Shown here in pieces: positions 28,296 through 46,724 of a stretch of DNA of 64,000 nt. Made by a program: the position numbers and the translations under genes. A model generated the notes under the pieces. That model was not told the DNA's origin. It saw only the letters and a list, made by a program, of their open reading frames with translations, and did not search any database. This DNA is from Verrucomicrobiota bacterium (lineage in GTDB: Bacteria > Verrucomicrobiota > Verrucomicrobiia > Opitutales > UBA953). How positions within the stretch are numbered: the first letter of the stretch is position 1; every line of letters starts with the position of its first letter. The DNA lies in assembly GCA_015061905.1 (NCBI GenBank), contig SUVQ01000004.1:1-64000 (forward strand). Direction: 5' to 3'.

Positions 28296-29213
28296 TTACT
28301 TACGGCGTCGGCGCGAAGCCACAAGCGCAAGCGCGCCTATTCCCGCAAGCAAACCGAATGCCGAAGGCTCGGGGACCGAGGGCGTCGGAGTCGGTTCCGG
28401 TTGCGGTTCCGGCGGCGGGGTAGGAGGTGTCGCCGCAACAAACTGACGTGCTTCTTTTTCGAATGTTACATTGGTCAGCGACACCGAACCCAAGCAATCG
28501 TCAACAAAGCAACCGACAGTTAGATTTCGGTCATGGGCAATGCCTCCGAAATTGTCATCAATACTAAAGACGCCGGATTGGGACGGGCTGGCACTGTCGC
28601 CTAAATTATCATAAGTGAACATAATTAAATCGTCTTTGCTATGATCCGAAAAAGATTCGACGATAATTGTGTAGCGATGCGTGCCGTTTGCCAAATTCCA
28701 GCCCGCGTGGACGGTTCCTTTATCTATTCCGTCAACCAGCTTGGGCGTGCCGCCTGCGTGCCCGTTCAAATAATCGCTGAGGACATAGCTGTTTGCGGAA
28801 ACGTTTTTGTCTCCTTCGGCGACATTTGCTCCGTTGAAATGTTGTATTGCTGCGGCTCCGCGTCCGGAATAAAGGTAATAGTTACCGTAAACGATAGAGT
28901 TGTTCGGTGCTGCTAAATACGCGTTAAAAAGAGGCTGTCCGTGAGCTTGCCCATTGTTTGTATCAATTGTAAACGTGATAACCCAGCGTGCATCTTGCCC
29001 GAGATTGAGCTGTGTGCTGCCCCAAGAATAATTATGGACCTCCGAGTAAGGATTGCTTCCTACTAATGAGGGTTTAAACCACGTATTTTCGTCGGTGTAA
29101 TGATACGTTCCCGCGTCGGTTGCGCCAAGCCTGTCTGTCAGGTTGTTTGCCGCCGGTAATATGCTCGTTCCCGCTAAAATGAGGGAAGCGGTTGTTAATA
29201 ATTGTTTTTTCAT
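28296..29213 (-). CDS. PEP-CTERM surface protein
   Basis: About 305 residues from the ATG at 29213 (MKKQLLTTASLILAGTSILP), giving a clear signal peptide. The C-terminus has the VPEPSAFGLLAG motif, one membrane span and a basic RRRRK end, the exosortase sorting signal; a Pro-rich linker (PPTPPPEPQPEPTPTPS) precedes it. The middle is a beta-rich domain of about 230 residues with lectin/laminin-G-like features but no firm family. It shares its domain type with the protein at 45733. The exosortase at 42511 is the obvious processing enzyme. Promoter and leader belong to the conserved block at 29235-29335. Confidence 0.88.
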   Translation of the reverse strand: MKKQLLTTASLILAGTSILPAANNLTDRLGATDAGTYHYTDENTWFKPSLVGSNPYSEVHNYSWGSTQLNLGQDARWVITFTIDTNNGQAHGQPLFNAYLAAPNNSIVYGNYYLYSGRGAAAIQHFNGANVAEGDKNVSANSYVLSDYLNGHAGGTPKLVDGIDKGTVHAGWNLANGTHRYTIIVESFSDHSKDDLIMFTYDNLGDSASPSQSGVFSIDDNFGGIAHDRNLTVGCFVDDCLGSVSLTNVTFEKEARQFVAATPPTPPPEPQPEPTPTPSVPEPSAFGLLAGIGALALVASRRRRK

Positions 29214-29234: not shown

Positions 29235-29335
29235 GAATGAGTGCAAGAGCCTGTCTCTTGACAAATAGACTCAATTCGAAGGCTCAATTCTGAAAAAAAA
29301 AAACGGAAGTCAAACAAAATCTACCGATATGATAG
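29235..29335 (-). promoter_or_regulatory. Conserved PEP-CTERM promoter and 5'-leader, copy A
   Basis: In gene direction: a dyad CTATCATATCGGTAG (29321-29335), TTGACT as -35 (29308-29313), a spacer with eleven T, and CAGAAT as -10 (29287-29292). The predicted transcript then begins with GAATTGAG (29270-29277), which pairs with CTCATTC (29235-29241) with one bulged T. Inside is a hairpin CAAGAG-ACAGG-CTCTTG (29244-29260). The same order, spacing and pairing recur upstream of the two other PEP-CTERM genes. Confidence 0.75.
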
Positions 29336-37950: not shown

Positions 37951-37953
37951 GCA

Positions 37954-38055
37954 TACCTATTTGGTAGTAATATATTGACGGCTACGTTTTTTTTTTGCTA
38001 AAACACAGGTTGGAAATTGAGTCAAATCGGAGAAATAAAAAATCTCGCTCAATTT
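37954..38055 (+). promoter_or_regulatory. Conserved PEP-CTERM promoter and 5'-leader, copy C
   Basis: Dyad TACCTATTTGGTA (37954-37966), TTGACG as -35 (37975-37980), a spacer with ten T, TAAAAC as -10 (37999-38004, spacing 18). The leader has AAATTGAG (38014-38021) perfectly complementary to CTCAATTT (38048-38055), and an inner GAGA/TCTC hairpin. Same order as copies A and B, with different bases but kept pairing. Confidence 0.75.
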
Positions 38056-38089: not shown

Positions 38090-38788
38090 ATGAAAAAATA
38101 CATTACAATCGCGGCTCTCCTTTCCGCAGGAACCGCCCTCGCAAATGCGGAACCGGAAAAACTGACATTAACAAGCCCATCCGGGAATAAAGTGGAATCC
38201 GGAAATGCTTACACGGCGTGGTCTAATTCCGGAGAAGGTTATTCTGTTTTAGATAGCTGGTCTGTGTCGTTTTCGTTGACGGATTCGGCGCTCTCTTCTG
38301 CCGGTGTTTTTTCAACAACAAGAAAAGCCAATGGCGGATTTTCCGGATATGTTTTGAAAACTAAAGCTGACGGTGGAATTGAACTTACAAATACAAGCAT
38401 TTCGCTTGCCGGAATTTTGACTGCCGGGCAAAAGTCAGATTTGATAACCGTTTCTTTTGTTGCCGATGTTTTAGAAGACGGAACTTTTTCCGGCGGAACC
38501 TTTACGGTCTCATCCGGGGACAAAAGCAGTTCGGAAAAAGTTAGCGGATTAACAACCGACTCCTATCCCACGGAAACGAATGGCGCGACCGGACTTATAA
38601 ATGGAGAGCAAACATTCGGAAATACGAAATGGTCTTCTCGTTTTTGGACAAACGGCGGTGCGGAAAAAATTTATGATATCTCGATTTCGAAATTGGATAG
38701 TAATGTAATTCCCGAGCCGTCGGCGTTTGGGATGCTTGCGGGGCTTGGCGCGTTGGCGTTGGTGGCATCGCGTCGTCGCCGCAAATAA
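38090..38788 (+). CDS. PEP-CTERM surface protein
   Basis: 232 residues. Signal peptide MKKYITIAALLSAGTALANA, a beta-rich middle of about 180 residues without a recognised family, then IPEPSAFGMLAG, a membrane span and RRRRK. It is exported by Sec, then cut or anchored by an exosortase. The gene is AT-richer than its neighbours and has no octamer copy. Expression is probably driven by the conserved block at 37954. Confidence 0.87.
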   Translation: MKKYITIAALLSAGTALANAEPEKLTLTSPSGNKVESGNAYTAWSNSGEGYSVLDSWSVSFSLTDSALSSAGVFSTTRKANGGFSGYVLKTKADGGIELTNTSISLAGILTAGQKSDLITVSFVADVLEDGTFSGGTFTVSSGDKSSSEKVSGLTTDSYPTETNGATGLINGEQTFGNTKWSSRFWTNGGAEKIYDISISKLDSNVIPEPSAFGMLAGLGALALVASRRRRK

Positions 38789-42510: not shown

Positions 42511-43611
42511 TTACTTTTCTTCCGGCGGCGGCTCGTCGACAAATTCGAAGCCCATTTCCTCGTCGGTTTTGGTCAGCTTGAGATTAAACAACGGAATGAG
42601 CATCAAAAGCATAATGAAAGTGATAATCATCGCCGTCCAGCCGGCAACGTCGTGCACGGTGCCGAGCGTGAATTTTACGCTGTCTGTAGGATTCCCGAAA
42701 AAGTCATAATCCAAAGCTTTGGAGCCGTTCCAGAGCGACCACACCGTCAAAAAGCTGGTGCGCAACACGTTCAAAACGAGCGCGAATACGATGGAAACGC
42801 CGACGAAGCAGACTTTTTTCCCCCAGGAATGGAGAAAAATTGCGGCGAGAAACGAACCTGCGAAGACGCATGCCGTCATCGAGCGGATTCCCGAGCAAGC
42901 GTCCGCCACGCCGACGGTATCGCCTCCCGGAAGCACGATAATGTTGCCTTCCTGAACGAGGGAAAAATCAAAGAGATTGAGCAAATAGACGACGGTTGCC
43001 GTAACTTTGTCCAAGAGCAGGGTTTTGATTTGGCTGTCTACGAGAAACGTAAACGGACCGGAAACAAACCATACGCAAATCGGGAAAACAAAAATCATCA
43101 GCACGCGCAATCGGGTGCGCAAATCGAGCGGCGTTCCCGTCAAATCTTTTGCCGAAGCGAACCAAACCAAGCCGAACGCCGTGCCGATGAAGCCCATCGT
43201 GTTTTCGTGAGTCGTAACTGCCGCCGCGCCGTAAATTGCGGTGCCGACACCGCCTCCGGCGAACAAAAGGAGCGAGAAAAGCGTTCCCGCGGCAAAAATC
43301 AGATCGAGAATCCACGGCGTTTTCCACCCGGGGCGAATAAACGCGGGCGGCGAAAATTCGTCGGTCGGTTCGCCGCTGTCGTCCGTCGCCGTCGCCAACG
43401 GCGAGCCCGTGAAAATCGCGCGCAAGAGGTGAAAGCGTTCTTTCAAAACAAAAGCGCACAAAAACGGCACGAGATAGCCGAAAATGTAATCGTCTTTGGA
43501 CGACCAGCAGTATTGCTGATCCCAAATGACGATGGCGCACATAAGAATTCCGATCGCCGCAAACCACAGCGGCGTTTTATCTGATTTTTTTTCTGCGGAA
43601 ATACTGCTCAT
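42511..43611 (-). CDS. Exosortase (PEP-CTERM sorting enzyme)
   Basis: About 366 residues from the ATG at 43611 (MSSISAEKKSDKTPLWFAAI), with about eight membrane segments. The catalytic triad of the exosortase/archaeosortase family is visible: Cys in VADACSGIRSM, Arg in LVLNVLRTSF and His in GTVHDVAGWTA. It is an inner-membrane transpeptidase-like enzyme that recognises PEP-CTERM tails. Three substrates lie in this window (28296, 38090, 45733). A hydrophilic loop near residue 75-100 is unusually rich in Asp/Pro. The exact subtype cannot be assigned. Confidence 0.92.
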   Translation of the reverse strand: MSSISAEKKSDKTPLWFAAIGILMCAIVIWDQQYCWSSKDDYIFGYLVPFLCAFVLKERFHLLRAIFTGSPLATATDDSGEPTDEFSPPAFIRPGWKTPWILDLIFAAGTLFSLLLFAGGGVGTAIYGAAAVTTHENTMGFIGTAFGLVWFASAKDLTGTPLDLRTRLRVLMIFVFPICVWFVSGPFTFLVDSQIKTLLLDKVTATVVYLLNLFDFSLVQEGNIIVLPGGDTVGVADACSGIRSMTACVFAGSFLAAIFLHSWGKKVCFVGVSIVFALVLNVLRTSFLTVWSLWNGSKALDYDFFGNPTDSVKFTLGTVHDVAGWTAMIITFIMLLMLIPLFNLKLTKTDEEMGFEFVDEPPPEEK

Positions 43612-45732: not shown

Positions 45733-46605
45733 TTATCGCTTACGCCGCGAAGCAACGAGCGCCAGCGCGCCTATGCCTGCAAGCAAACCGAATGCCGACG
45801 GCTCGGGAACGTTTTCTGCCGTGCGAGTCCACTTTGTAAACGAGTTTTGAGGCGTTCCGTTTTCGGAGCCGACAAAAGTAACGTCGCCGACATTCGATTT
45901 ATTTCCGCCGGGAGCCGCTGCGTCTCCGATGAGATGAAATCCGATATCATCAAAAACCTGTTCCGTATGTCCTCCGCATCCGAGGTGTGACGAGTTTAGG
46001 ATGAGAAAGTATGTGTTGGCTCCGGTCGTCTCGTTTTTCACACCGAAGTAGATTTTGTCGTTAATGGACGAGTCGGCAAATGTTTCAAAGATAATTGTGT
46101 ATTGGTAATGTCCGTCCCCGTAATTGATGTTGCCGGGCGATGTCCAAACTTGTTTTCCGGCGGACCCGAAAGCAAGAGATTCAAGTGCAGGCGTATTGGG
46201 AACGTCTGCATACAACAAAACTCCTGTTTGAGACATTACACTCGGCGAATTTCCGAAAACGATACAAACGTCATTGGAAGTGTTTACCATCGAGAGCATT
46301 CCTGATGCGGGTTGTGTGTCGGAAAGCCCCTTGTCATGAACCATCTCAAACGTAATTTCGTAGCGGGCATCTTGGGTGAAGTCCACTTTCATGCTTGAGC
46401 TCCCGTGGATTTGGACTTCGTTCGCGGCACCTGTTGTTGCCGTGTCTTTTTCTGTGAAAGTGAGTTTTTGTTCTTGGTTGTAAGTGTATTTCACCTTGTC
46501 GGTGTCCTGTTCCCAGATTTTTGTTTTTTGAGATTCCGTCCACGCGTTTGCGCTGAGCGTTCCCGCGAGGAGGAGGGTTGCTATCGGTAAGAATGTGTTT
46601 TTCAT
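45733..46605 (-). CDS. PEP-CTERM surface protein
   Basis: About 290 residues from the ATG at 46605 (MKNTFLPIATLLLAGTLSAN, signal peptide). It ends VPEPSAFGLLAG, a span and RRKR. The middle (HYQYTIIFETFADSSINDKI) resembles the protein at 28296 (HRYTIIVESFSDHSKDDLI), so the two are paralogues with the same beta-rich domain. Likely exported and handled by the exosortase at 42511. The upstream conserved block is at 46625-46724. Confidence 0.88.
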   Translation of the reverse strand: MKNTFLPIATLLLAGTLSANAWTESQKTKIWEQDTDKVKYTYNQEQKLTFTEKDTATTGAANEVQIHGSSSMKVDFTQDARYEITFEMVHDKGLSDTQPASGMLSMVNTSNDVCIVFGNSPSVMSQTGVLLYADVPNTPALESLAFGSAGKQVWTSPGNINYGDGHYQYTIIFETFADSSINDKIYFGVKNETTGANTYFLILNSSHLGCGGHTEQVFDDIGFHLIGDAAAPGGNKSNVGDVTFVGSENGTPQNSFTKWTRTAENVPEPSAFGLLAGIGALALVASRRKR

Positions 46606-46624: not shown

Positions 46625-46724
46625 ATTGAGCGCAAGAGACCGTCTCCTGACAAATAGACTCAATTTGAAACTGCCATTTTGAAAAAAAAAAACGTAGGTC
46701 AACTCAAAACTACAAAAATGGTAG
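46625..46724 (-). promoter_or_regulatory. Conserved PEP-CTERM promoter and 5'-leader, copy B
   Basis: In gene direction: dyad CTACCATTTTTGTAG (46710-46724), TTGACC as -35 (46697-46702), a spacer with eleven T, and CAAAAT as -10 (46676-46681). The leader has AAATTGAG (46659-46666) pairing with CTCAAT (46625-46630), enclosing the hairpin CAGGAG-ACGGT-CTCTTG (46633-46649). One inner pair is G-T here and A-T in copy A. Confidence 0.75.

Follow-up and report, generated by a model that had tools for sequence, protein, structure and literature searches.

Candidate phase-variable promoters with homopolymer spacers at PEP-CTERM genes in an Opitutales genus related to genomes from the ruminant gut

Homopolymeric tracts in promoters are known to accompany switching of bacterial surface proteins. 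In Neisseria meningitidis, porA carries a poly-G tract between its -35 and -10 boxes, and length changes alter their spacing (PMC7864442; the primary reference, van der Ende 1995, as cited in PMC5084427). Every vlp promoter of Mycoplasma hyorhinis contains a homopolymeric A tract, and experiments have tied switching to changes in this tract (PMC10502178). The promoters described here resemble porA in that a homopolymer separates the -35 and -10 boxes of a gene for a surface protein, here a predicted one, and vlp in that the members of a multigene surface family all have the same kind of homopolymer near their promoters. They differ from porA, a single gene, in that about 30 promoters are involved, with poly-T or poly-G depending on the species and a structured leader following, and in that their switching is only predicted. 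Unlike vlp, which encodes lipoproteins of a wall-less bacterium, the genes are scattered, their products are exosortase-sorted and they have stem-loop leaders.

For PEP-CTERM genes themselves, a sigma-54 regulon (PrsK/PrsR) has been described, with motifs limited to Proteobacteria and those of other groups still to be found (Haft 2006, PMC1569441). As in that regulon, many PEP-CTERM genes here have a common upstream regulatory site, but it consists of a homopolymer-bearing promoter of the TTGAC/-10 kind in which no -24/-12 element was seen. By direct reading, GG and GC, where they flank the T-run, are 13–15 nt apart, not the 10 of a -24(GG)/-12(GC) site, and other classes are without them; no sigma-54/PrsR site was seen, and we read these promoters as of the TTGAC/-10 type. 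Stabilising 5'-terminal stem-loops are described for the ompA and papA leaders in the references given in PMC3997798. The stems described below likewise lie at, or a few nt from, the predicted 5' end of surface-protein mRNAs, but they are common to dozens of unrelated genes, their sequences covary and any stabilising role is a predicted one. Gut-bacterial PEP-CTERM genes have also been associated with invertons, i.e. candidate phase variation by DNA inversion (PMC11892184), a case like ours in the surface proteins concerned and unlike it in mechanism, a homopolymer tract being involved here. An Akkermansia genome paper on PEP-CTERM and phase variation concerns intragenic tracts. We found no prior report of the present element in the open-access papers searched.

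The window (the whole 64-kb stretch of DNA analysed here) contains three PEP-CTERM genes, each preceded by one copy of the element (copies A, B and C), together with an exosortase gene that is without it. The original prediction had listed a dyad, TTGAC, a T-run and two leader arms for every copy, and all of these were located (Table 1). The dyad-to-TTGAC distance is exactly 7 nt in A, B and C. Folding from the predicted transcript start recovered the proposed outer stem enclosing an inner hairpin in all three leaders (-10.8, -10.4 and -12.2 kcal/mol in A, B and C, respectively); when copy A was folded from further upstream, it adopted a different structure involving bases that precede the predicted start. 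A -35/-10 spacing of 17–18 had been proposed as well, which holds for copy B but not for A and C, where the best -10-like hexamers lie at 15. The PEP-CTERM motif was the sole Pfam match in the three proteins.

Table 1. Positions in the window of the three copies of the element, their genes and the exosortase gene.
Feature	Position	Strand	Evidence
Copy A dyad CTATCATATCGGTAG, candidate operator	29321..29335	(-)	sequence; dyad-TTGAC pattern enriched in genus
Copy A promoter TTGAC-N5-T11-CAGAAT	29287..29313	(-)	
Copy A T11 homopolymer within promoter spacer	29293..29303	(-)	
Copy A leader stem GAATTGAG/CTCATTC, one bulge, around inner hairpin AAGAG/CTCTT	29235..29277	(-)	fold from predicted start
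Copy A gene, PEP-CTERM protein, 305 aa, N-terminus MKKQLLTT	28296..29213	(-)	PF07589, TIGR02595
Copy B dyad ATACCTATTTGGTAG	37953..37967	(+)	
Copy B promoter TTGAC-N7-T10-GC-TAAAAC, spacer 18	37975..38004	(+)	
Copy B T10 homopolymer within promoter spacer	37987..37996	(+)	
Copy B leader stem AAATTGAG/CTCAATTT around GAGA/TCTC	38014..38055	(+)	
Copy B gene, PEP-CTERM protein, 232 aa, N-terminus MKKYITIAALL	38090..38788	(+)	
Copy C dyad CTACCATTTTTGTAG	46710..46724	(-)	
Copy C promoter TTGAC-N5-T11-CAAAAT	46676..46702	(-)	
Copy C T11 homopolymer within promoter spacer	46682..46692	(-)	
Copy C leader stem AAATTGAG/CTCAAT around AGGAGA/TCTCTT	46625..46666	(-)	
Copy C gene, PEP-CTERM protein, 290 aa, N-terminus MKNTFLPI	45733..46605	(-)	
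Exosortase, predicted sorting enzyme for PEP-CTERM proteins	42511..43611	(-)	PF09721 2.5e-34; TIGR04178 above cut-off

The source genome (G000; 2.08 Mb, 17 contigs) has 65 PEP-CTERM matches above the TIGR02595 cut-off. We fetched the upstream regions of all 65 genes and inspected directly the approximately 58 that were readable. At least 31 of the 58 showed TTGAC or TTGC, a run of T9–T12, a -10-like hexamer and a 5' stem-loop leader. The element thus precedes every PEP-CTERM gene in the window, as had been proposed, but only about half of those in the genome. The pattern TTGACN{5,8}T9N{1,6}ANAAT matched the 2.08 Mb 29 times and its reversed control not once, which rules out chance resemblance. 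These matches comprised 26 complete PEP-CTERM genes, two gene fragments at contig ends (L080 and L083, near-identical genes whose mature part falls in a PEP-CTERM cluster) and one secreted protein (L072), so that the further PEP-CTERM copies on which the original prediction depended do exist; its observation is real and larger than three copies. A stricter first pattern ending in AATTGAG had no matches, because the -10 and leader sequences differ by class. Across the set the spacer length varies from about 14 to 20, and many spacers measure 19 or 15, outside the usual 16–18. PEP-CTERM tails, signal peptides and the exosortase gene predict a cell-surface location for these proteins.

Some other features of these upstream regions were observed. 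Promoters of the class with MKKYI signal peptides (e.g. L014, L047 in the source genome) have a second T-run, from about T7 to T21 and followed by CAAAA...TGC, adjoining the -35 box upstream, which could be an UP-like element or a further slippage tract. Two long PEP-CTERM genes (L034, L049) have another upstream layout consisting of dyad-like ends, TTTTGTCTCAA, A10–A12 and CGGTAGG, which in part resembles the element in reverse. The secreted protein L072 and its relative L261 in G004, which has the promoter too, are coiled-coil-like, with no PEP-CTERM tail and no Pfam match.

Among sister species, 18 of the 19 poly-T loci examined precede PEP-CTERM genes, as do 10 of 13 loci with poly-G in place of poly-T and 10 of the 12 loci fetched with a looser pattern. 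Counting every search and locus, seven genomes out of the eight in the genus have the poly-T or poly-G form in front of PEP-CTERM genes at least once. The exception, G003, has six PEP-CTERM matches only and a single pattern match (L103), which we take as chance since the downstream frame is not PEP-CTERM. The same searches gave no poly-T or poly-G matches in 107 genomes of other genera from the same family and order. A promoter scan of the whole GTDB returned 22 matches, most of them in two genomes of Opitutales from the rectum of sheep and goat; the remainder, single matches in unrelated groups, are probably due to chance. No matches to the element were found in the viral contigs searched. 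Pure gene duplication can be ruled out as the sole cause by the mature parts of 34 of the proteins (signal peptide and tail removed), which fall into 19 clusters with no detectable similarity at E 1e-3.

The T-run had been listed in the original prediction as part of the spacer. Its location was right, but it is also the most conserved feature of the element and is replaced by poly-G in sister species. Tract lengths in the source genome cluster tightly at T10–T11. They differ between orthologues, i.e. L053 (T9) and L104 (T11) at 94% protein identity, L001 (T10) and L105 (T11) at 85%, and L045 (T11) and L115 (T10) at 81%, and between the paralogues L080 (T11) and L083 (T10) at 98.5% identity. 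These comparisons draw on one genome per species, and the lengths come from metagenome-assembled genomes and may include sequencing or assembly error. The two paralogues are 94% identical across 661 nt, including some 130 nt of upstream DNA, and the changes in their leaders preserve a stem. In two sister species (G001 and G006) the PEP-CTERM promoters carry G7–G10 in the spacer instead of T, and G004 has both poly-T and poly-G promoters, one of its tracts being G13. For one of the two poly-G species (G001) the T-to-G swap is confirmed by orthologues, namely L047 (T11) versus L207 (G8) at 71% protein identity and L111 of G007 (T11) versus L211 (G7) at 78%. The genome of G001 has eight sites with at least G7 shortly before ANAAT, and six of these eight are PEP-CTERM promoters.

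What is conserved, as far as sequence comparison can tell, is a pure homopolymer separating the two promoter boxes, which is the hallmark of phase variation by slipped-strand mispairing. That it is kept between -35 and -10 despite a change of base fits phase variation of the porA and vlp type, and its conservation together with the poly-G replacement points to phase variation rather than only to a regulon made of an operator and an RNA element.

Stem sequences differ between the classes of leader, of which two are large (signal peptides MKKYITLAALLA and MKNTLLITTLLA) and several are small. The original prediction held that base changes keep pairing, and on this the arm-swap and covariation tests agree. 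For 34 distinct arms from six species, pairing with the own partners was far better than with shuffled ones (0 of 100,000 permutations, z -7.1), and with 15 representatives none of 20,000 permutations matched the own-partner pairing. The reversed-arm control fell slightly below its own mean (789 of 20,000), so that a small part of the arm-swap signal reflects composition. In the MKKYI class, 93% of cells were paired versus 33–54% when slid, and the covariation score was reached by none of 500 shuffles. By these tests the leader stems appear as real RNA structure, in which the pairing is conserved and the sequence is not. A covariance model of this class alone (R1) gave 14 strong matches, all at PEP-CTERM genes; it misses copies A, B and C of the window.

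The distance from -10 to stem was 5–9 nt in 57 of 57 leaders, with the lower bound imposed by our discarding pairs less than 5 nt from the -10 beforehand, whereas the gap between stem and ATG ranged from 10 to 54 nt. The leader thus seems to be anchored to the promoter or predicted transcript start and not to translation. No loop sequence is conserved in common among the leader classes and, by eye, no Shine-Dalgarno-like sequence was found in the leaders. At the gathering score, Rfam matched only tRNAs in the 64-kb window, with no leader or riboswitch family, and a known Rfam family for the leader was rejected on these grounds. In G001 the promoter is present without the leader, which is therefore not essential to the system. 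Given that the 5'-terminal stem-loops of ompA and papA stabilise mRNA, the most likely role of this one is probably the same.

We also noted a short repeat in the genus, similar to those of the uptake-sequence type. The 8-mer CGGGAACG/CGTTCCCG occurs 194 times in the 64 kb, which makes about 3 per kb overall, 2.98 for coding DNA and 3.25 for non-coding DNA. Six of the eight genus members have it at 2.3–4 per kb, but G001 and G006, the species with poly-G-only promoters, have 0.2–0.55 per kb, and other genera have almost none. In two leader classes this 8-mer lies within the inner hairpin.

The dyad, 7–11 nt upstream of TTGAC in some classes including all three window copies, has a narrower distribution. 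The pattern TACY-N5-RGTA-N7..11-TTGAC had 14 matches in the source genome versus one in the control. Of these 14, PEP-CTERM genes or PEP-like fragments account for 11 and a secreted non-PEP family for two; the last lies in apparently coding DNA (C5:135739), and we take it, with its G007 counterpart, as chance. The secreted family (L245 on contig C16 of the source genome, L247 in G007) is multi-copy, about 475 aa long and without a PEP-CTERM tail, and has the dyad and TTGAC upstream. PEP-CTERM genes of G004, G005 and G007 are also preceded by the dyad, and it occurs at some PEP-CTERM genes with neither T-run nor leader. It is missing from the poly-G promoters and from most promoters of the MKKYI class, the largest. 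Since only some classes have the dyad and G001 has no leader, operator, homopolymer promoter and leader are three separable modules. Of the dedicated regulon with a DNA operator and an RNA element that had been proposed, the shared promoter and the paired leader stood, while neither dyad nor leader proved universal. The proposal is thus partly supported: regulon and RNA element are, and the operator is for a subset only. The most revealing component of the element is the homopolymer.

Taken together, these modules probably make up a unit for exosortase-sorted PEP-CTERM genes, with a candidate phase-variable promoter, an mRNA-stabilising 5' stem-loop and, in some classes, an operator. The promoter is sigma70-like, and its -35/-10 spacer holds an uninterrupted homopolymer, poly-T or poly-G, of variable length. 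Slipped-strand mispairing would alter the spacer length, so that the transcription of each gene could be switched or graded independently, and such independent switching would give a phase-variable surface. In most of these species the transcript is predicted to start with a nested stem-loop, which may shield the mRNA from 5'-end-dependent decay and would leave an unstructured A/C-rich stretch downstream for ribosome entry. The dyad may serve as the operator for a regulator common to PEP-CTERM genes whether or not they have the homopolymer. For the genome as a whole we lean, somewhat more cautiously, towards a combinatorial switch in which about 30 unlinked PEP-CTERM genes with slippage-prone spacers and a stabilising stem-loop would give each cell a random subset of exosortase-anchored proteins.

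Each module can be read in other ways. Poly-T runs bend DNA, and the T-run could work without switching, as a structural spacer, bent and rigid, whose length is no switch and which determines how strong the promoter is or how it responds to supercoiling or temperature. The narrow range of tract lengths in the source genome and the upstream T-run of the MKKYI-class promoters are in line with such a structural spacer, but DNA bending and similar alternatives fit the T-to-G change less well, since orthologous promoters have the mechanically different poly-G at the same place, and the lengths differ even between close orthologues and paralogues; we consider it quite unlikely. The leader, in turn, could be a regulatory RNA that is bound by a protein, a small RNA or a ligand and acts on how the PEP-CTERM regulon is translated, not on mRNA stability. 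Its conserved nested two-stem architecture and the lack of a visible Shine-Dalgarno-like sequence make this a tentative alternative, which is rather doubtful given the anchoring of the stem to the promoter, the variable gap to the start codon, the classes having no common loop sequence and the window matching no such Rfam family.

A classical operator regulon, with a single regulator acting on every PEP-CTERM gene through CTACC-N5-GGTAG, would explain the enrichment of the dyad with TTGAC in the source genome and its presence at PEP-CTERM genes of three other species, but not the many promoters of the largest leader class and of the poly-G type that are without it, nor its occurrence upstream of a secreted non-PEP family, and is in our opinion unlikely. 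Finally, recent gene duplication or the shuffling of cassettes might have left the shared upstream region as a mere relic, without any regulatory function under selection. Within the MKKYI class, signal peptides and C-terminal tails are indeed highly similar, and the assembly is broken by repeats at some copies. Against this stand the unrelated mature parts, the pairing that stays while the stem sequence turns over, and the retention of the element across species with different dialects, which make a mere relic very improbable. These sequences are best read as candidate phase-variable promoters of PEP-CTERM genes that extend across the whole of this Opitutales genus, itself related to genomes from the ruminant gut.

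Verrucomicrobiota have PEP-CTERM proteins in large numbers, and how such proteins are regulated outside Proteobacteria was left open by Haft 2006. The leaders provide an unusual natural series of 5' stem-loops in which structure is kept and sequence turns over ahead of unrelated genes. With a promoter homopolymer at about half of the PEP-CTERM genes and the replacement of T by G, phase variation of the surface can be tested directly from tract lengths in existing metagenome reads. If true, this would be the first known homopolymer-spacer contingency system of the PEP-CTERM/exosortase pathway, and it suggests a randomly switching surface in a bacterial group for which none had been described before.
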